From positions 1-64,000 of the forward strand of contig NZ_SMDQ01000023.1 in NCBI RefSeq assembly GCF_012911975.1: a stretch of 64,000 nucleotides of DNA, given 5' to 3'. Every line of letters starts with the position of its first letter. The first letter of the stretch is position 1. The position numbers and the translations under genes were made by a program. Below, one piece after another: positions 23,885 through 33,680 of this stretch. The notes beneath the pieces are model-generated. The model worked only from the letters and a program-made list of their open reading frames with translations. It did not search any database and was not told where the DNA came from. This DNA comes from Nodosilinea sp. P-1105 (GTDB lineage: Bacteria; Cyanobacteriota; Cyanobacteriia; Phormidesmidales; Phormidesmidaceae).

Positions 23885-25177
23885 ATGAATATCGCCGTAA
23901 TTGGCCTGAGCCACAAAACCGCCCCAGTTCATATTCGCGAAAAACTTAGTATTCCGACGGCTCAGACAGGAGACGCGATCGCCCATCTCACCCATTGCCC
24001 CCACCTGGACGAAGTATCCATCCTCAGCACCTGTAACCGTCTCGAAATTCACATCGTTACCGAAGACACCGAGCAAGGGGTGCGGGAGGTGACTCAGTTC
24101 TTAGCTGATCACAGCGGCCTGCCCCTGCCAGAATTGCGTCAGCATCTGTTTATTCTGCTCCACCAAGATGCGGTCACTCACCTGATGCGGGTGGCAGCTG
24201 GGCTCGATAGTCTGGTGCTGGGGGAAGGCCAAATCCTCTCCCAGGTGAAACATGCCCACCAGCTGGCCCAGCAACACAAAAGCAGTGGCCGCATCCTCAA
24301 CCGTTTACTTAAGCAGGCGATTACCGCTGGTAAACGGGTGCGTACCGAAACCAGCATTGGTACCGGGGCCGTATCCATTAGCTCGGCGGCCGTGGAGCTA
24401 GCTCGGCTAAAAGTGCCCCACCTGAGTCAGTGCCATGTCAGCATTCTGGGAGCCGGTAAAATGGCGCGCCTGCTGGTGCAGCATCTGCTGGCTAAAGACA
24501 CCTGTACCATCACCATCCTCAACCGCACCGTCGATCGGGCTAACGAATTAGCCAAGCAATTCAGCGACAGCGACATTCGCACTGGCACCTTAGACACCAT
24601 GATGGAGACCGTACAGTGCTCTGATGTGGTGTTTACCTGTACCTCCGCCACCGAACCGCTGCTGCACCGCGACAACCTGGCACCCGTTCTGGATGCCGGT
24701 CGCAACCTGATGGTGTTCGACATTTCAGTTCCCCTGAATGTCCACGCCAACGTCAATGAGCTAGAGCGGGTGTTTGCCTTTAATGTGGATGACCTGAAGG
24801 CGGTAGTGGCCCAAAACCAGGCCAGTCGTCGCCGCATGGCTATGGAAGCCCAGTTACTGCTGGATGAAGAGGTGGACAGCTTCATGGACTGGTGGCGTTC
24901 CTTGGATACCGTAGTCACCATCAGCAGCCTGCGCAACAAGGTTGAATCTATCCGCGAGCAGGAATTGGAAAAAGCCCTATCTCGCCTGGGCAGCGAGTTT
25001 GCCGACAAGCACCAGGAGGTGATTGAAGCTCTGACCCGGGGCATCGTCAACAAAATCCTCCACGACCCCATGGTGCAACTGCGGGCCCAGCGGGATATTG
25101 AAGCCCGCAAGCGGGCGATGCAAACCCTACATGTGCTGTTTGACCTGGAGACCGCTTCCAACGAGAAGTACAGCTAA
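23885..25177 (+). CDS. hemA: Glutamyl-tRNA reductase
   Basis: HemA reduces glutamyl-tRNA to glutamate-1-semialdehyde, the first committed step to haem, chlorophyll and bilins. The 430-residue protein has [17 protein letters not shown] at the N-terminus, the catalytic cysteine in [11 protein letters not shown] (about residue 50), the NADPH-binding [17 protein letters not shown] (about 181-197) and the helical dimerisation tail. GTGGAGGAAGA provides the ribosome site before the ATG. The next ORF starts 7 bp after the stop. Confidence 0.96.
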
Positions 25178-25184
25178 CCCCCCT

Positions 25185-26735
25185 ATGCCCCGCTGGTTTA
25201 ATACTGCTGGTCCCTGCAACCCGGCTATCCACTACATGTTGCCTGCCACCGAACGGTTGCCCAATGTAGAGCGACTGGTGGCCCAGCAGGGGTATTTTGT
25301 TATCCACGCTCCCCGCCAAACGGGCAAAACGACAGCCATGCTGGAGATGGGGAAACAATTGACCGCCAGCGGTCAATACACAGCGGTGATGCTGTCGGTA
25401 GAAGTGGGAGCCGCCTTTAGTCAGGATCCTGATCGGGCCGAAGGGGCTATTTTAGATGCCTGGCGGGGGGCAGCTAATGTGCGGCTGCCCCCAGACTTGC
25501 AGCCCCCCCTCTGGCCTGCAGCTGATCCCGGTCGGCGAATTGGATCGGCCCTAGCGGCTTGGAGCCAGGCATCCCCTCGCCCCTTAGTGATTTTTATCGA
25601 TGAAATTGATGCCCTGCAAAATCAGGCCTTAATCTCTGTATTGCGACAGCTGCGGGATGGCTACCCGAATCGTCCCCAGGCCTTTCCCCAGTCCCTGGCC
25701 CTGATTGGCCTGCGGGATGTGCGAGATTATAAGGTGGCGTCTGGGGGCAGCGATCGCCTGAATACGGCCAGTCCTTTCAATATCAAGGTCAGATCCTTTA
25801 CCTTGCAAAACTTCAGCCGGGAAGATGTGATCGCGCTCTACCAGCAACATACCCACGACACTGGCCAACGCTTTACCCCTGCCGCCCTAGAGCATGCCGT
25901 TTACTTGACCGATGGTCAGCCCTGGCTAGTGAATGCCCTGGCTAAAGAGGTGGTGGAAGAACTGGTGCCCGATCCTGAGTTTCCGATTACAGACGCTCAC
26001 ATTGATCGAGCCAAAGAAATTCTGATTCAGCGCCAGGATACCCACTTAGATAGTCTGGCAGAACGGTTACGAGAGCCTAGAGTCAAAGCGATCATCGAGC
26101 CGATGCTGGCTGGCCAGGCGTTGGCAGACACCCCCCTGGATGATCGTCGCTTTCTGCTGGATCTAGGTCTACTGAAGCATGATCCCATGGGGGGCCTGAC
26201 GATGGCCAACCCCATCTATCGAGAAGTCATTCCCCGGGTACTCGCCAGTGGCTCCGAAGATTCCTTGCCACGCATTTCGCCGAGTTGGCTGATGCCAAAC
26301 GGAGGGTTAGATACCAACCAGTTATTAACAGCTTTTTTAACCTTTTGGCGGCAACATGGAGAGCCTCTGCTTAAAAGCGCGCCTTACCACGAAATTGCCC
26401 CGCACCTGGTGCTGATGGCTTTTCTGCATCGGGTAGTCAATGGCGGCGGCACCCTAGAGCGAGAGTATGCCATTGGCACCGACCGGATGGATCTCTGTCT
26501 GCGCTATGGCGATGTGGTTTTGGCCATTGAGCTCAAGGTTTGGCGTCAAGGGCGGACTGACCCCCTGCCGACTGGGCTAGAGCAACTGGATCGCTATCTA
26601 AGTGGCCTGGGCCAGGATACCGGTTGGCTGGTCATTTTCGATCGCAGAGAAGGCCTGGGTCCGATCAGCGATCGCACCACTGTAGAGCCAGCCACCAGCC
26701 CAGCCGGGCGACAGATCACCGTGATCCGAGGCTAA
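25185..26735 (+). CDS. AAA-like ATPase with C-terminal PD-(D/E)XK-type domain
   Basis: From ATG 25185 the protein has 516 residues (an open frame extends back to 25098 inside hemA). Residues 1-60 contain PATERLPNVERLVAQQGYFVIHAPRQTGKTT, with the P-loop near residue 43. Walker B is VIFIDEIDALQN. The middle is helical. At the C-terminus, MDLCLRYGDVVLAIELKVWR (about 434-453) has the D-xn-ExK spacing of the PD-(D/E)XK nuclease fold. Similar two-domain proteins are common but uncharacterised, and are sometimes suspected of defence or mobile-element roles. It sits between hemA and ureG. Confidence 0.75.
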   Translation: MPRWFNTAGPCNPAIHYMLPATERLPNVERLVAQQGYFVIHAPRQTGKTTAMLEMGKQLTASGQYTAVMLSVEVGAAFSQDPDRAEGAILDAWRGAANVRLPPDLQPPLWPAADPGRRIGSALAAWSQASPRPLVIFIDEIDALQNQALISVLRQLRDGYPNRPQAFPQSLALIGLRDVRDYKVASGGSDRLNTASPFNIKVRSFTLQNFSREDVIALYQQHTHDTGQRFTPAALEHAVYLTDGQPWLVNALAKEVVEELVPDPEFPITDAHIDRAKEILIQRQDTHLDSLAERLREPRVKAIIEPMLAGQALADTPLDDRRFLLDLGLLKHDPMGGLTMANPIYREVIPRVLASGSEDSLPRISPSWLMPNGGLDTNQLLTAFLTFWRQHGEPLLKSAPYHEIAPHLVLMAFLHRVVNGGGTLEREYAIGTDRMDLCLRYGDVVLAIELKVWRQGRTDPLPTGLEQLDRYLSGLGQDTGWLVIFDRREGLGPISDRTTVEPATSPAGRQITVIRG

Positions 26736-26788: not shown

Positions 26789-27406
26789 ATGACGACACCC
26801 TTTCGTGTGGGGGTAGCGGGGCCAGTGGGATCGGGCAAGACCGCCCTGGTGGATTGCCTGTGCAAGGCGCTGCGCGATCGCTATTCCATTGCCGTTGTCA
26901 CCAATGATATCTATACCCAGGAAGATGCCCAGTTTCTAGTACGCAGCCAGGCCCTCAATCCCGATCGCATCGTGGGAGTGGAAACTGGCGGCTGCCCACA
27001 CACCGCCATTCGCGAAGATGCCTCCATGAACCTGGTGGCGATCGAAGACCTGGAAGCGCGGTTTCAACCCCTAGACTTTGTGTTCGTAGAAAGCGGCGGC
27101 GACAACCTGGCCTCTACCTTTAGCCCAGAACTGGTGGACTTAACCCTGTATGTGATTGACGTGGCCGCTGGGGACAAGATTCCCCGTAAGGGGGGGCCGG
27201 GGATTACCAAGTCAGACTTTTTGGTGATCAACAAAATTGACCTGGCACCCATGGTCGGTGCCAGCCTGGCGGTGATGGAGCGCGACGCGAAGAAAATGCG
27301 GGGCGATCGCCCCTTTGCCTTTACGAATCTTAAGACTCAGGAAGGTCTGCCCAAAGTGATTGAGTTTATTCAGTATCATGGCGTAACTAGCCCAGCCATA
27401 CCCTAA
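26789..27406 (+). CDS. ureG: Urease accessory GTPase UreG
   Basis: UreG uses GTP to drive nickel insertion into urease. The 205-residue protein has the P-loop [25 protein letters not shown], the metal motif [19 protein letters not shown] (CPH) and the NKxD-type NKIDLAP. All are intact. None of the urease structural genes are in the window. The urea transporter operon follows 192 bp downstream on the same strand with its own NtcA-type promoter, which links uptake to hydrolysis. Confidence 0.96.
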
Positions 27407-27484: not shown

Positions 27485-27526
27485 GTATCACAGACTACAC
27501 TTGCCTCTATTCACTACCCCTAATAT
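27485..27526 (+). promoter_or_regulatory. NtcA-activated promoter of urtABCDE
   Basis: GTA-TCACAGAC-TAC (27485-27498) is a perfect GTA-N8-TAC NtcA box. TAATAT (27521-27526) follows after 22 bases and fits the TA-N3-T -10 element at canonical spacing. NtcA activates nitrogen-assimilation genes under ammonium shortage. The transcript would start about 70 bp before urtA. Confidence 0.85.
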
Positions 27527-27598: not shown

Positions 27599-28906
27599 AT
27601 GGTACCTCGATTTAACCGACGTAAGTTTTTGGTGTATGGGTCGGCCACCCTAGGCACCTCGATGCTGTTGAAAGCCTGTGGAACTCCCACCGATACAGCG
27701 ACAGATACTGATGCCGACGGTGATGCCCCTGCTGCCGATGGTAATGGTGACACCATCAAAGTAGGTATTCTCCACTCGTTGAGTGGCACTATGGCTATCA
27801 GTGAGACCACGGTAGTTGACGCAGAACAACTGGCCATCAAAGAAATTAACGAGGCTGGGGGTGTCCTGGGTCGGCAAATCGAGGCGGTGGTTGAAGACGG
27901 CGCTTCTGATTGGCCCACCTTTGCTGAAAGGGCCGAAAAGCTGATCGACCAAGACCAGGTGGCCGTGGTATTTGGCTGCTGGACATCCGCTAGCCGCAAA
28001 GCGGTACTCCCTGTTTTTGAATCTAAAAACCACATGTTGTGGTATCCGGTGCAGTATGAAGGTCAAGAGTGCTCCCAGAATATCTTCTACACTGGGGCCG
28101 CCCCTAACCAGCAAATCGAGCCCGCTGTAGACTGGCTACTGGAAAATAAAGGTGATGAGTTCTTCCTGGTCGGGTCTGACTACGTCTTTCCCCGCACCGC
28201 CAATACCATCATCAAAGAGCAACTTGAGGCTCGGGGTGGCACCACCGTGGGTGAAGACTACCTGCCCCTGGGGAATACCGAAGTCACCCCAATCATCACC
28301 CGCATTCGTGCTGCCTTGCCCGACGGCGGCGTCATCTTTAACAGCCTCAACGGCGATAGCAACGTCGCTTTCTTTAAGCAGTTGCAAGGGGCTGGTATGG
28401 ACCCTGATATGTATCCTGTGATGTCGGTGAGTCTGGCGGAAGAAGAAGTGCGCCAGATTGGTAGTGAGTTCTTGGTGGGACACCTGGCTTCTTGGAACTA
28501 CTTCCAGACCGTGGATACCCCTGAAAACGAGCGCTGGGTGGCAGCCTTTAAGGAAGAATACGGTGACGATCGCGTTACCAATGACCCGATGGAAGCTGCT
28601 TACATCATGGTCTATCTCTGGAAGCAGGCGGTAGAAGCCGCTGGCACCTTTGATATTCCTGAGGTGCGAGCTGCGGCCTACGGGCAAACCCTGGATGCTC
28701 CCGAAGGTCCGGTGACCATGAATCCCAACCACCACCTATCTAAGACCGTGCGCATCGGCGAGGTGATGGAAGATGGCATGTTTGACATTCTCTGGGAAAC
28801 TGACGGCCCCATTGAGCCTGAGCCCTGGAACCAGTTTGTGCCTGAAACCACTGGTTTTGCCTGTGACTGGTCTGACCCTGACAAAGGGGAGCGGTTTGAA
28901 ATCTAG
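27599..28906 (+). CDS. urtA: Urea ABC transporter substrate-binding lipoprotein UrtA
   Basis: This 435-residue type I periplasmic binding protein captures urea. The N-terminus has a twin arginine (FNRRKFLVYG) and a lipobox (LLKACG, Cys about 27), followed by an acidic linker. This suggests Tat export of a lipoprotein. The body is typical UrtA: VGILHSLSGTMAISETTVVD, FGCWTSASRKAVLPVFE, MLWYPVQYEGQECSQNIFYTG. It leads the urt operon behind the NtcA promoter. A hairpin follows before urtB. Confidence 0.95.
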   Translation: MVPRFNRRKFLVYGSATLGTSMLLKACGTPTDTATDTDADGDAPAADGNGDTIKVGILHSLSGTMAISETTVVDAEQLAIKEINEAGGVLGRQIEAVVEDGASDWPTFAERAEKLIDQDQVAVVFGCWTSASRKAVLPVFESKNHMLWYPVQYEGQECSQNIFYTGAAPNQQIEPAVDWLLENKGDEFFLVGSDYVFPRTANTIIKEQLEARGGTTVGEDYLPLGNTEVTPIITRIRAALPDGGVIFNSLNGDSNVAFFKQLQGAGMDPDMYPVMSVSLAEEEVRQIGSEFLVGHLASWNYFQTVDTPENERWVAAFKEEYGDDRVTNDPMEAAYIMVYLWKQAVEAAGTFDIPEVRAAAYGQTLDAPEGPVTMNPNHHLSKTVRIGEVMEDGMFDILWETDGPIEPEPWNQFVPETTGFACDWSDPDKGERFEI

Positions 28907-28943
28907 ATCGCTCTTGGCTTTAGCCTAGCGTGATGGCGCTAGC

Positions 28944-28981
28944 TAATGGCGAGGGCGCAGTTATCTGAGTCCTCGCCATTA
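28944..28981 (+). terminator. Intra-operon hairpin between urtA and urtB
   Basis: TAATGGCGAGG (28944-28954) pairs exactly with CCTCGCCATTA (28971-28981). CATTTTCAAGG follows, so it is a weak terminator or RNA-stability hairpin. It would give more UrtA than membrane components. Confidence 0.6.
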
Positions 28982-29013
28982 CATTTTCAAGGCTAGGCCC
29001 CACAGCCCTGAGG

Positions 29014-30267
29014 GTGATCATTGGGTGGTCTTGGCTGGATGCACTGCGTTGGGTAGAACGTTTTCAGTCTGTTGTCTTTAAAGCGGTAAAAGCGGTGTTA
29101 GAAGGCTTGATTGGTGGCCTGTTCAACGGCGTCAGCATTGGTGCGGTGCTGTTGATTGTGGCCTTGGGGTTGGCTATTGTATTTGGACTAATGGGAGTAA
29201 TCAACTTAGCCCACGGCGAGTTGATGATGTTTGGAGCGTACACCACTTATATCGTGCAAAATGCTGCCCAAGAAATTGGCGGCATTGCTCCTGATATTTT
29301 TATTTTTGTGGCCCTGCCCATGGCCTTCTTAGTGTCTGCGGCGTTGGGGCTATTGCTTGAGCGCAGTGTGATTCGCTATCTCTACGGTCGACCGCTGGAG
29401 ACCCTGCTGGCCACCTGGGGGGTGAGCCTGATTTTGCGGCAGTTTGTCCGTAGCGTCAATTGGCCGATCGCGATTGGCTTAGTCATTTTTGCTGTACTGT
29501 TTGGCGTAGGACGTTGGTTGCTCAACCGCTACACCGACTGGGATCGAATCAGCCAGTGGGCTAATCCGATCTTTGTGGGGCTGTCAGCCGCGATCGCCCT
29601 GGTGGCGGGCATTCTGATTCAAAACGCTGGCAGCAACCAGTTTACCCGGGCTTGGTTCAGCACTCGCAACGTGGATGTGGCCACCCCAAACTGGCTGCGG
29701 GGCGGTGTCACCGTAGGCACGTCCCTGCAATTTCCCTACGCCCGTCTATTTATCATTGCTCTGACGATTCTATGTGTGGTTGCCGTGTATTGGTTTCTCA
29801 ACGGCACGGCCTGGGGCCTGCGGATTCGATCCGTCACCCAGAATCGAGGTATGAGCGCCTGCCTGGGGATTCCCACCGATCGGGTCGACGCCTTGACCTT
29901 TGCCCTTGGGTCTGGCCTGGCTGGTATTGCCGGGGTCGCCGTCACCCTATTGGGGTCTGTGGGACCCAACTTGGGGGTGAACTACATCGTTGATGCCTTC
30001 ATGGTGGTGGTGGTAGGCGGCGTGGGTAAGTTGGTGGGCAGCATTGTGGCGGCCTTGATTATCGGCATCGCCGTTTATCTGGTCGGCTCGGGTACCCTGG
30101 CTTTGCTGTTCCCGCCCACAGAAGCGTTCCAGCCCTTTATCGACTTCTTTAACTTCTTTGCCACCACCAGCATGGCCAAGGTGATGGTATTTGCCCTGAT
30201 TATTTTGTTCTTGCAGGTGCGGCCCGCTGGGCTGTTTCCCCCCAAAGGTCGTTCGGTGGAGCTATAG
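29014..30267 (+). CDS. urtB: Urea ABC transporter permease UrtB
   Basis: A polytopic LivH-type permease. The start is GTG 29014 (MIIGWSWLDALRW), giving 417 residues. Another GTG at 29095 (MLEGLIGGLFNGVSIGAVLL) matches the usual UrtB N-terminus better, so the first 27 residues are uncertain. Typical segments are GLMGVINLAHGELMMFGAYTTY and RPLETLLATWGVSLILRQFVR. The C-terminal part has VGGVGKLVGSIVAALIIGI. An additional hydrophobic stretch at about 150-200 lies between conserved blocks. The urtC start is 3 bp beyond the stop. Confidence 0.95.
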   Translation: MIIGWSWLDALRWVERFQSVVFKAVKAVLEGLIGGLFNGVSIGAVLLIVALGLAIVFGLMGVINLAHGELMMFGAYTTYIVQNAAQEIGGIAPDIFIFVALPMAFLVSAALGLLLERSVIRYLYGRPLETLLATWGVSLILRQFVRSVNWPIAIGLVIFAVLFGVGRWLLNRYTDWDRISQWANPIFVGLSAAIALVAGILIQNAGSNQFTRAWFSTRNVDVATPNWLRGGVTVGTSLQFPYARLFIIALTILCVVAVYWFLNGTAWGLRIRSVTQNRGMSACLGIPTDRVDALTFALGSGLAGIAGVAVTLLGSVGPNLGVNYIVDAFMVVVVGGVGKLVGSIVAALIIGIAVYLVGSGTLALLFPPTEAFQPFIDFFNFFATTSMAKVMVFALIILFLQVRPAGLFPPKGRSVEL

Positions 30268-30270
30268 CTA

Positions 30271-31449
30271 ATGGCAACAGATGCAACTATTCAGCCCCGC
30301 CGCGTTGTCAAGGCCAGCCAAAAGCGTAAGCTGGTCATCGAAGCCCTTGTTGTCATTGCGATCGCCCTGATTTTGGCCTTCGTGGTGCCGATGTTTTTGT
30401 CTGGCTTTCGGCAGAACTTGCTAGGACGGTTTTTGGCTTTAGCCATTGTGGCCCTGGGGATTGATCTGATCTGGGGGTTTACCGGGCTACTCAGCCTGGG
30501 GCATGGTATCTTTTTTGCCCTCGGGGGCTATGCCTTTGCCATGTTTCTGCAGCTTAACTCGCTGCCAGACGGGCAAATCCCTAACTTCTTTAGCCTCTAT
30601 GGGGTAAGCCAACTGCCCTGGTTTTGGGAACCGTTTTATTCGTTGCCGTTTACCTTGGTCGCTATTTTCATGATTCCGGCGATCGTGGCTGGGCTACTGG
30701 GCTACATGGTCTTTCGAAACCGGATTCGCGGCGTCTATTTTTCGATTTTGACCCAAGCGGCCTTAGTGGTGTTTTTTAACTTCTTTAATGGTCAGCAACA
30801 GTTGATCAATGGCACCAATGGCCTCAGTACCACTACCACTATCTTTATGGGGCAGCAGGTGGGTGGTGCTGACATGCGCAGCTTTTTCTACATCCTCACC
30901 GTCGTCTTTTTGGTGTTGATGTATGTCCTCTGTCGCTGGCTGACCAGTGGTCGGTTTGGGCGGCTGCTGGTAGCCATCCGTGATGATGAAAACCGAGTAC
31001 GGTTTTCAGGTTACGACCCCACCGCCTTTAAGGTGCTGGTGTTTGCGGTCTCCGGGGCGATCGCCGGGATCGCTGGAGCGCTCTATACGGTGCAGTCAGG
31101 AATTATTTCGCCCCAGGCTATGGATATTGCCTTTTCCATTGAAATGGTGATTTGGGTGGCCGTAGGGGGACGGGGCACCCTCGTGGGAGCCATTTTGGGG
31201 GCTGTGCTGGTGAACATGGCCCGCAGCCTACTGGGCGAACGCTTTCCTGAGGTTTGGATGTTCTTTCAAGGGGCGCTGTTTTTAATTGTGGTGACCACGT
31301 TGCCGAATGGCATTATTGGCTGGGCTCGTCGCCAGTTCGGTTCCAAGGTCAGCCAAGCCCTTGGCATTGCCCCCACCAACTTGCCTTATCTGGATGACAC
31401 CCCTGAACTTGAACCCCTGACCGACACCCCCGAATTCGTCGAAAAGTAG
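30271..31449 (+). CDS. urtC: Urea ABC transporter permease UrtC
   Basis: A 392-residue LivM-type permease with about 10 transmembrane helices. Conserved segments include LGIDLIWGFTGLLSLGHGIFFALGGYAFAM, FINFFNGQ-like FFNGQQQLINGTNGL, and the ATPase-coupling loop RFGRLLVAIRDDENRVRFSGYD. It forms the heterodimeric channel with UrtB. It overlaps no neighbour but follows urtB by 3 bp. A repeat-filled 170-bp gap separates it from urtD. Confidence 0.95.
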   Translation: MATDATIQPRRVVKASQKRKLVIEALVVIAIALILAFVVPMFLSGFRQNLLGRFLALAIVALGIDLIWGFTGLLSLGHGIFFALGGYAFAMFLQLNSLPDGQIPNFFSLYGVSQLPWFWEPFYSLPFTLVAIFMIPAIVAGLLGYMVFRNRIRGVYFSILTQAALVVFFNFFNGQQQLINGTNGLSTTTTIFMGQQVGGADMRSFFYILTVVFLVLMYVLCRWLTSGRFGRLLVAIRDDENRVRFSGYDPTAFKVLVFAVSGAIAGIAGALYTVQSGIISPQAMDIAFSIEMVIWVAVGGRGTLVGAILGAVLVNMARSLLGERFPEVWMFFQGALFLIVVTTLPNGIIGWARRQFGSKVSQALGIAPTNLPYLDDTPELEPLTDTPEFVEK

Positions 31450-31619
31450 GGCATCGTAGGGTGTTTAACGCCAAAGGCGCGGCTAAAGACAACGCGCAGC
31501 AACGTGCCTCAGTCTAGGCTTCCACCCAGCGCAATAGACCCTGTCAGTCCCCTCGGCCAATGGTGGGCATTGCCCACCCTACGCATTCACCCATCCACCC
31601 TGTCACCCCTCCCCCCCTC
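31450..31619. repeat. Repeat-filled gap between urtC and urtD
   Basis: GTAGGGTG near 31457 and CACCCTAC near 31576 bound a loose palindromic repeat that includes GGTGGGCATTGCCCACCC (self-complementary). CCATCCACCC-type C-rich sequence then runs directly to the urtD ATG at 31620. Confidence 0.7.
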
Positions 31620-32753
31620 ATGAGCACCAAAGTCCTCGATATTCAAAACGTTACCGTCAGCTTTGATGGCTTCAAAGCCCTTAGTAACCTCAACTTCTCC
31701 ATGGACGAGGGAGAGCTACGGGTGATCATTGGTCCCAATGGGGCCGGTAAAACCACCTTTCTCGATGTGATTACCGGCAAAACCAAGCCAACGGAAGGGG
31801 TCACGTACTTTAAAGGCCAAGACCTACGGAAATATAAAGAGCACGAAATTGCCCGTCTTGGTATTGGTCGCAAGTTCCAAACCCCTCGGGTATACCTCAA
31901 CCTCACGCCTCGAGAAAATTTAGATTTGTCGTGTAACCGGACAAAAACGATTTTTCCCACCCTGTTCAAAAAGCCTCCCACCGCCGAGAAGCGCACCGTC
32001 GGTGGCCTATTAGAAACCATCGGTCTCGATCACAAGGCTGACATCCCTGCCGCCCTACTCTCCCATGGGGAAAAACAGTGGCTGGAAATTGGCATGTTAG
32101 TGGCCCAATCCCCCGACCTGCTGCTGGTGGATGAGCCCGTGGCAGGGCTGACAGACGAAGAAACTGAGCAAACCGGTAACCTGCTAATGTCCCTGGCCGA
32201 AAGCCACTCCATTGTGGTGATCGAGCACGATATGGAGTTTGTGCGCCAGATCGCTCGCCAGGTGACGGTGCTGCACCAGGGTACCGTGCTTTGTGAAGGT
32301 ACCATGGACCAGATCCAAAACGATCCTAAGGTGATCGAAGTTTACCTAGGCAAAGAAACCAGCCTCACCCCCGAGCAAATGCTGCTACTGCGCATTGCCG
32401 CCACCATGGCCTGGGCCGATGATAACTTTGCCGATGTCCAGCAGCAGGTGATTCTCGATCGCCTGAGCCGCAAATTTGCCCACGCCCCAGAGGAGCAGGC
32501 AAGCTTGCGGGAAGATCTGAAAGATCTACTGGCCAAAGACATCCCCCTAGAAGAGTTGGTCCCCCAGTTGACGACTCCCGCCCAGCGGGAACAAGCCCTA
32601 ATGCTGAGTTACGAGGTGATTAGTTCCAATCAAATCAACGAAACCGAAGCCATCATTTACCAGACCCTGCTGAATTTGTTGGATCTACCCCCAGACACCG
32701 TTCGCCGCCTGGAGGCCGCCGCCCTGGAGGAATTGGCCGTACGGGGGGATTAG
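31620..32753 (+). CDS. urtD: Urea ABC transporter ATPase UrtD fused to a TerB-like domain
   Basis: The protein has 377 residues from ATG 31620 (MSTKVLDIQNVTVSFDG); upstream codons back to 31560 are repeat. Residues 1-246 are a normal UrtD ATPase: Walker A GPNGAGKTT, LIV-type signature LLSHGEKQWLEIGMLV, Walker B LLLVDEPVAGLT, and end VIEVYLGKE, where other UrtD proteins stop. In the same frame about 130 residues follow that look like TerB: LLLRIAATMAWADDNF and later ALMLSYEVISSNQINETEA, the two acidic helix repeats of that all-helical fold. No frameshift or second start is needed. The added domain may bind metal or a regulator (inference). Confidence 0.9.
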   Translation: MSTKVLDIQNVTVSFDGFKALSNLNFSMDEGELRVIIGPNGAGKTTFLDVITGKTKPTEGVTYFKGQDLRKYKEHEIARLGIGRKFQTPRVYLNLTPRENLDLSCNRTKTIFPTLFKKPPTAEKRTVGGLLETIGLDHKADIPAALLSHGEKQWLEIGMLVAQSPDLLLVDEPVAGLTDEETEQTGNLLMSLAESHSIVVIEHDMEFVRQIARQVTVLHQGTVLCEGTMDQIQNDPKVIEVYLGKETSLTPEQMLLLRIAATMAWADDNFADVQQQVILDRLSRKFAHAPEEQASLREDLKDLLAKDIPLEELVPQLTTPAQREQALMLSYEVISSNQINETEAIIYQTLLNLLDLPPDTVRRLEAAALEELAVRGD

Positions 32754-32927
32754 GGGAAATTTTGGATTTTGGATTTTGAATTCGATACCCCATCCCCCCC
32801 GTTCCCCATCCACCCATCCACCCCTACCCTGTGGGAAGCCGTTCCGCGTCTACACCCCATCACCCCCACCCTCTCCACCTCTCTCATCCACCCATCCACC
32901 CCGTTACTCATCCACCCATCCACCCCC
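32754..32927. repeat. TTTTGGATTTTGG tract and CCATCCACCC repeats between urtD and urtE
   Basis: ATTTTGG units (32759-32780) are followed by CCATCCACCCATCCACCCC-type sequence at 32807-32825, 32886-32900 and 32911-32927. The last block ends at the ATG 32928. Translation of this block in frame gives low-complexity HPSTP repeats, so it is not real UrtE sequence. Confidence 0.85.
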
Positions 32928-33680
32928 ATGACCACCACCCTCCCCACCCCCACCCACCAAGATCCCCTCACCGCTCCCATGGTGGAAATCTCTGGGCTCA
33001 ACTTCTACTACGGCGAAAGCCACATTCTACGGGACGTCAACTTGACAGTTCCCAGAGGGCAAATGGTCTGTCTGATTGGCCGCAACGGGGTGGGCAAGAC
33101 CACACTGCTGAAAAATATTATGGGAGTACTACGTTCTCGTACTGGAACGATTCGGTTTGAAGGGCAGGTAATCAATAGTTTTCCTCCTGATCGCCGGGCT
33201 CGGTTAGGGATTGGCTATGTGCCCCAGGGGCGAGAGGTGATTCCTCGTCTGACGGTGCGGGAGAATTTGCTGATTGGCCAAGAAGCGTTGGGTAGTCGTG
33301 GCAAAGCTCGAAAAGAAGTGCCGGAATCTATCTATGAACTATTTCCAGTGCTCAGGGATATGCTGGATCGGATGGGGGGCGACCTGAGTGGCGGGCAACA
33401 GCAGCAACTGGCGATCGCGCGCGCGATCATGGGCCAACCCAAACTGTTGGTGCTGGACGAGCCCACAGAAGGGATTCAGCCCTCGATTATTCTGGACATT
33501 GAGGCAGCAGTCAAAAAAATTGTCAAGACCACTGGCATTTCGGTGCTGTTGGTCGAACAGCACCTACATTTTGTGCGCCAGGCTGACTATTACTACGCTA
33601 TGCAGCGGGGCAGTATTGTGGCTAACGGTCCCACCCGCGAACTGACAAACGACATTGTTCAAGAGTTTCTGGCGGTATAA
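32928..33680 (+). CDS. urtE: Urea ABC transporter ATPase UrtE
   Basis: A LivF-type ABC ATPase of 250 residues from ATG 32928. The family usually starts at the equivalent of ATG 32979 (MVEISGLNFYYGESHILRD, 233 residues), so the first 17 residues are uncertain. Walker A is GRNGVGKTT, the signature is DLSGGQQQQLAIARAIMGQP, and Walker B is LLVLDEPTEGIQPS. An open frame reaches back to 32769 but only through the repeat. No Shine-Dalgarno sequence precedes either ATG. Confidence 0.93.
   Translation: MTTTLPTPTHQDPLTAPMVEISGLNFYYGESHILRDVNLTVPRGQMVCLIGRNGVGKTTLLKNIMGVLRSRTGTIRFEGQVINSFPPDRRARLGIGYVPQGREVIPRLTVRENLLIGQEALGSRGKARKEVPESIYELFPVLRDMLDRMGGDLSGGQQQQLAIARAIMGQPKLLVLDEPTEGIQPSIILDIEAAVKKIVKTTGISVLLVEQHLHFVRQADYYYAMQRGSIVANGPTRELTNDIVQEFLAV

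Follow-up and report, generated by a model that had tools for sequence, protein, structure and literature searches.

A TerB-like domain fused to the urea-importer ATPase UrtD in a cyanobacterial urt operon

Results

The urt locus and its promoter

The window, the whole stretch of 64,000 nucleotides of Nodosilinea sp. P-1105 DNA that was analysed, carries in order genes for a UreG-like protein, UrtA, UrtB, UrtC, UrtD and UrtE, with the urt genes spanning 27599-33680 (Table 1). The same urt gene order is found in related loci. The names UrtA, UrtB, UrtC and UrtE are given by position and by this shared order, not by family models of their own, and those of UrtA and UrtE also by likeness to the known proteins. 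Upstream of them, the name UreG-like is our reading of the family PF02492 (CobW/HypB/UreG). Between this gene and a hemA-looking gene lies an ORF with an AAA-like domain (25098-26735; PF14516, 28.6 bits), whose first possible start overlaps the preceding gene.

Table 1. Coordinates of the features at the urt locus of the window.
Feature	Position	Strand	Evidence
UreG-like GTPase (urease accessory), upstream of urt genes	26789..27406	+	PF02492 CobW/HypB/UreG, 136.6 bits
NtcA-type operator GTATCACAGACTAC	27485..27498	+	Pattern match, 114 bases before urtA start
-10 box TAATAT	27521..27526	+	Read from sequence, 22 bases after operator
UrtA, urea-binding protein of ABC importer	27599..28906	+	ORF; homologues in same place in related operons
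UrtB permease	29014..30267	+	ORF, start codon unsure; homologues in same place in related operons
UrtC permease	30271..31449	+	ORF; homologues in same place in related operons
UrtD ATPase core, residues 1-246	31620..32357	+	TIGR03411 residues 5-245; PF00005, PF12399
TerB-like C-terminal domain, residues 247-377, plus stop codon	32358..32753	+	PF05099 E=3.7e-4; AlphaFold2; structural matches; conserved fusion
UrtE, importer's second ATPase	32928..33680	+	PF00005, 119.1 bits; homologues downstream of fused urtD in most related operons

An earlier reading of the sequence alone (the sequence-only reading) had called the importer nitrogen-regulated, and this is backed by an NtcA-type promoter before urtA. 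The layout, an operator followed after 22 bases by a -10 box, is that of an NtcA-activated promoter. The bare NtcA pattern occurs in the window at chance level, with 7 found and 5.9 expected. Within 450 bases before urtA it is present in 25 of 34 named loci against 49 of 1198 control pieces taken from these loci, and together with a -10 box in 23 of 34 against 4 of 1198, the 34 being the named loci with enough DNA upstream of urtA and including many close relatives, which are not independent. The combination of pattern and -10 box is missing in L072, L082, L084, L098, L100, L106, L117, L118, L123, L135 and L148.

urtD encodes a complete ATPase followed by 131 further residues

The urtD gene (31620-32753, forward strand) is a single unbroken frame that runs from an ATG at 31620 to a TAG at 32751-32753 and encodes a 377 aa protein. 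The UrtD model TIGR03411 matches residues 5-245 with 377.9 bits, above its cut-off of 304.1, and over positions 2-242 of its 242; the short C-terminal motif PF12399 has its last residue at 246, and PF00005 is also matched within this core. The ATPase had been proposed to stop at VIEVYLGKE, the ordinary end of UrtD, and to be followed by about 130 residues in the same frame. Both points hold, with TIGR03411 reaching 245, PF12399 reaching 246 and 131 residues (247-377) coming after. A sequencing error was ruled out as the source of the fusion, since the same fusion is seen in 45 named loci.

The tail is TerB-like by profile and probably by predicted fold

When the tail is scanned alone, its best Pfam family is TerB (PF05099; E=3.7e-4, 21.2 bits), below the cut-off of 24.4 bits, and the second is DUF533; within the whole protein the TerB match has an E of 0.0043. 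Among ten sequences scanned closely, two exceeded the TerB cut-off, seven lay at 17.4-21.4 bits and one, the tail of L159 (genome G133), was without a TerB match. This copy and most scanned tails thus stay below Pfam's own TerB cut-off, whereas a fused homologue (L028, 26.4 bits) and a stand-alone one (L112, 26.2 bits) exceed it, and for this reason we call the window's copy TerB-like and do not file it as a formal PF05099 member. In an alignment of fused and stand-alone relatives (A1), each of the 23 members gives a TerB match with an E of 1 or lower (6.7e-7 for the best), although they are mutually related and do not amount to 23 independent tests. NCBIfam assigned the tail to no family. A PDB sequence search with the tail alone returned at best 9pfw, a redox enzyme (E 0.025), and the A1 profile at best Utp8 (E 0.082), with 2h5n at E 0.77.

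The predicted structure points to the same family. The AlphaFold2 model of the tail, built from 65 sequences, has seven helices, with a pLDDT of 83.2 and a pTM of 0.73. A structural aligner placed first 2ou3, annotated as "tellurite resistance protein of cog3793", from Nostoc punctiforme (Z 10.9, rmsd 3.3, 125 aligned), second the uncharacterised protein 5t2x (Z 8.7, rmsd 4.5, 88 aligned) and third 2h5n (Z 8.2, rmsd 3.6, 117 aligned), while the remaining matches reached Z 5.5 at most; Z values below about 13 can be ordinary between helical bundles without kinship. With Foldseek, the top matches were three chains of 2h5n (probability 0.99-1.00, E 0.027-0.096, none below 0.001), and the other matches listed had probabilities of 0.23 or less. 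2h5n is a member of the TerB-like superfamily. Taken together, sequence and predicted fold make TerB-like the clear reading of the tail. In a model of UrtD with its tail (pTM 0.62) the position of the tail is not fixed.

The sequence-only reading had also argued for TerB from an internal duplication of two acidic segments. This was undetected when the two halves were locally aligned and compared with shuffles, since shuffles scored at least as high as the real halves in 385 of 500 cases for this protein and in 166 and 495 of 500 for two relatives; plain local alignment of halves is a simple test, blind to an old, worn duplication. The argument from duplication was dropped.

Stand-alone relatives and the acidic motif

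The nearest relatives found are stand-alone cyanobacterial TerB-like proteins of about 150-170 aa, whose near forms share about 40-51% identity with the tail. The window's genome itself has such a paralogue (contig C195:2644-3024; L002, L216), 51% identical. In our main reading the tail shares ancestry with such a stand-alone protein. Compared with the window's fused tail, the stand-alone form contains an additional loop and extends further at its C-terminus. In alignment A2 (65 sequences, from the window and from 64 named loci out of the 80), between 35 and 38 of the 39 fused copies lack the loop of about 7 residues and the C-terminal stretch. Most tails closely related to the window's thus form a trimmed branch, and divergent fused tails keep more of the stand-alone form. 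The sequence around the 34 stand-alone loci showed no urt genes. In 20 of these 34 (including L107, L111, L112, L133 and L136) the gene for a Crp-type regulator is found upstream in the same orientation, and the one scanned, at L112, has a cyclic-nucleotide-binding domain and an HTH; other neighbours are an M61 peptidase (13 of 34) and NadA (12 of 34).

All 34 stand-alone named copies have the complete acidic motif "DG-x5-E" (D21-G22-E28), a putative metal-binding motif, as do 11 of the 45 named fusions and 7 of 16 fused tails from an unbiased genome draw (below). It is broken in the window's tail, where D21 is kept, G22 is replaced by D and E28 by Q. At position 28, 34 of the 45 named fusions have Q, and 11 of the 16 drawn fused tails have E. 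Residue conservation is better counted on the draw than on loci found with a pattern, and the invariance of M17, W19 and D21 in the named loci is partly forced by the search pattern, which lies over them. In the drawn tails D21, F40, L54, Y101 and L104 are present in 16 of 16 and E97 in 15, while M17 is found in 9 and W19 in 13. Loss of the motif had been considered as an argument against metal sensing after a first count (Q at position 28 in 28 of 39 fused tails; 65 sequences), and was rejected once the recount exposed a sampling effect; the acidic motif is not generally lost in fused tails.

The fusion is found across cyanobacteria

The draw comprised 386 cyanobacterial genomes. UrtD was found in 140 of them with an E threshold of 1e-90, and a tail homologue in 56 with a threshold of 0.01. 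A tail of 117-139 residues is attached to UrtD in 16 of the 140 UrtD-bearing genomes, from 8 family codes and each read from the DNA (G000, which is the window's, G170, G058, G083, G211, G109, G119, G145, G187, G286, G076, G093, G133, G131, G360 and G135). The tail of G133, invisible to BLAST and to Pfam TerB, was called by position, length and alignment only. With this spread the extension is not strain-specific. In G131 (L156) tail homology continues past the TAG stop, and its fused tail of 117 residues is slightly shortened.

The other 124 of the 140 have a UrtD frame without room for a tail, so the tail is not generally needed. These calls were made because the open frame, of at most 321 residues, is too short for core and tail, except in G370, where the frame has 404 residues yet only 6 extra ones when the DNA is read; two UrtD loci (L207, L208) gave no core at a BLAST filter of more than 50% identity and were left out of the reading. 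The tail-less UrtD proteins that were read end 0-22 residues past the core. Tail-less members occur also inside tail-bearing families: G215 (f1), G014 (f6), G062 (f16) and G033 (f9). In G215, which belongs to the family of the window's genome, the locus L215 has a tail-less UrtD, no UrtE within the 3.5 kb around it and a downstream frame that, judged by eye, looks like a protein kinase; in this genome the urt operon may have been split. G342 and G370 (about 3 Mb, f20) encode a TerB-like protein with a C-terminal stretch of its own and no urt gene in 2.7 kb (L209, L210), and their UrtD, on other contigs, is tail-less.

The named loci are the best 80 of 151 found with one tail pattern and are biased to near relatives; they comprise 45 UrtD fusions, 34 stand-alone copies and one split case, and given this sampling 45 of 80 is no frequency of fusion. 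UrtD and tail share a single open frame in 45 of the 46 loci that hold both, the split case being a metagenome bin (L098) where one frame does not cover both. Fused hosts include Nodosilinea, Leptolyngbya, Adonisia, Xenococcus, Spirulina, Picosynechococcus PCC 7117 and Symploca. To judge by its relative PCC 7117 (L118), Picosynechococcus PCC 7002 probably has the tail as well.

A Synechocystis-type UrtD (L066, genome G093) has 373 aa, a mass of 41.27 kDa and the end SVDEDGD; in the excerpts of PMC6603209, UrtD (Sll0764) is given 41.19 kDa and UrtE 27.42. The published forward primer for Synechocystis urtD matches L066 and L065 exactly. The 24-base end assembled from two published primers has 2 mismatches to L066, with the 20-base piece not exact. 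Because size and primers agree in this way, the Synechocystis model strain very probably carries the tail in a divergent form, for which Pfam gives DUF533 at 25.2 bits and TerB at 19.6, both below their cut-offs.

Origin and selection

The tree of the tails was built from 81 sequences (46 from fusions and 35 stand-alone) over 136 columns and contains several long branches; 21 named loci that were near-copies, partial or broken had been left out by hand without a computed threshold. In the best tree the fused tails fall into two groups, with 2 label changes, of which strong branches force at most 1. Fused tails lie on one side of a branch in 26% of 200 bootstrap trees. The tail of G286 (L028/L049) resembled a stand-alone copy by its extra loop, which had raised the idea of repeated independent fusions; since a tree that holds all fused tails together as one clade is not rejected (p-AU 0.375), we do not claim them. 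We also built a quick tree of 108 UrtD cores, from 91 of the 140 genomes (picocyanobacteria thinned) and 17 named loci, on which the tail trait changes state at least 13 times, with 4 changes forced by strong (starred) branches. Together, the two trees fit a single old fusion and many later losses; tails may also have been transferred, or have been fused a second time.

Between the window and nine close relatives, dN/dS is 0.056-0.112 for the tail and 0.025-0.042 for the core, the comparison with a tenth (L089) being saturated. For those pairs among the ten relatives with a tail dS below 1.3 (34 of 45), it is 0.039-0.215 for the tail and 0.000-0.059 for the core. In every pair compared the tail evolves faster than the core. 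The tail is clearly under purifying selection, weaker than that on the core, and with dN/dS of 0.04-0.22 it is not degenerate. None of the three findings named beforehand as speaking against the sequence-only reading (no TerB similarity, restriction to one strain, degeneracy) was made, and its central proposal, UrtD fused to a TerB-like domain, is backed by the profile matches, the predicted fold and the comparison of genomes. The 131-residue tail is a real domain, as its best Pfam match to TerB, the homologous tails elsewhere and purifying selection show.

Discussion

On balance, we consider it somewhat probable that this UrtD of the UrtABCDE importer bears a C-terminal TerB-like regulatory or docking domain, joined once early and lost many times. 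The product is a two-domain ATPase subunit of the high-affinity urea importer, in which a complete UrtD nucleotide-binding domain is followed by a TerB-like domain of seven predicted helices. The latter would sit on the cytoplasmic side, beside the ATPase, and may increase or decrease transport by binding another protein or a ligand, which would match urea uptake to the state of the cell. Its action would resemble that of the domain at the C-terminus of NrtC, the ATPase of the nitrate importer. According to the excerpts of PMC6603209, this NrtC domain acts in the inhibition of nitrate uptake by ammonium, and PII also controls uptake. NrtC thus provides a precedent for control of an importer through an extra domain at the C-terminus of its ATPase; by this analogy, a regulatory or docking domain is the most likely role of the tail, and a regulatory input on urea uptake, as had been suggested from the sequence, is plausible. 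In the same excerpts, two-hybrid assays with Synechocystis proteins show PII binding to UrtE and not to UrtD, while PII pull-downs enriched UrtD besides UrtE, which the authors credit to the whole complex (PMC6603209). Given the two-hybrid result, PII is unlikely as the partner of the tail. The UrtD of PCC 7002 was among the proteins that a redox probe tagged when nitrogen was limiting (PMC4080843), which says nothing about the tail. The stronger form of the regulatory reading, in which the tail is a new post-translational switch that works beside PII through a TerB-bound protein or ligand, in Synechocystis too, and makes this the first TerB-regulated ABC importer, is offered only tentatively.

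That the tail is an evolutionary leftover without a function of its own would agree with its patchy spread, the many changes on the UrtD tree, the 124 of 140 UrtD-bearing genomes that lack it and its faster change relative to the core. Such a leftover is already disfavoured by dN/dS of 0.04-0.22, by D21, F40, L54, Y101 and L104 being kept in 16 of 16 drawn tails and by the single open frame in 45 of 46 named loci holding UrtD and tail, and we regard it as very improbable. Metal or stress sensing, also brought up by the sequence-only reading, is unsupported. Urease needs nickel, and a tail that gates urea import as a sensor of a metal such as nickel for urease, zinc or manganese would draw on the acidic residues that drawn fused tails keep (D21 in 16, E97 in 15 and E28 in 11 of 16), and on D21-G22-E28 standing together in 7 of the 16, including the Synechocystis-type L065 and L066. 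Zinc and manganese also induce the ter genes of Klebsiella, terB among them, in the excerpts of PMC12054061. E28, however, which is invariant in the 34 stand-alone named copies, has been replaced by Q in the window's copy and in 34 of the 45 named fusions, and in the window's copy G22 is D as well; we consider a metal sensor unlikely.

The tail might instead be structural, stabilising UrtD, placing the importer in the membrane or tethering it to another complex, such as a TerC-family membrane protein or urease, without any on/off switching. TerB forms complexes with the membrane protein TerC (excerpts of PMC12054061), and the window's genome encodes one TerC-family protein above cut-off, which makes docking to a membrane partner a serious alternative, although no connection of this TerC gene with urt was seen. 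In addition, proteins of urea metabolism co-purify, which the excerpts of PMC6603209 read as possible channelling. Most UrtD-bearing genomes of the draw keep a tail-less UrtD, which argues that assembly does not generally depend on the tail, and a purely scaffolding role seems to us possible but doubtful. If the tail is regulatory, as we favour, it would add a second control point on cyanobacterial nitrogen uptake, next to PII on UrtE.

A literature search that covered few subscription papers found no paper on a TerB-like domain on UrtD or a urea importer, and "TerB" does not occur in PMC6737895. As far as these searches go, a TerB-like domain on a urea importer ATPase is a new form. ABC ATPases with C-terminal regulatory domains are already known. 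TerB domains are widespread; since this one is joined to an importer of known substrate, in lineages with tractable model strains, a TerB role becomes readable as urea uptake.

With the UrtD of other UrtABCDE systems (TIGR03411), the window's protein has the whole ATPase core and the operon order in common; it differs in continuing for 131 residues where UrtD without a tail ends 0-22 residues after the core. The tail finds its best Pfam family and its top structural matches in TerB (PF05099/COG3793; 2ou3, 2h5n), but here the TerB-like domain forms part of an importer ATPase and is encoded in a urt operon, not in a ter operon. The C-terminal domain of NrtC is NrtA-like and not TerB-like. As a nitrogen-importer ATPase whose C-terminal domain helps to regulate uptake, going by the excerpts of PMC6603209, NrtC is the system to which the window's UrtD would be a putative parallel.
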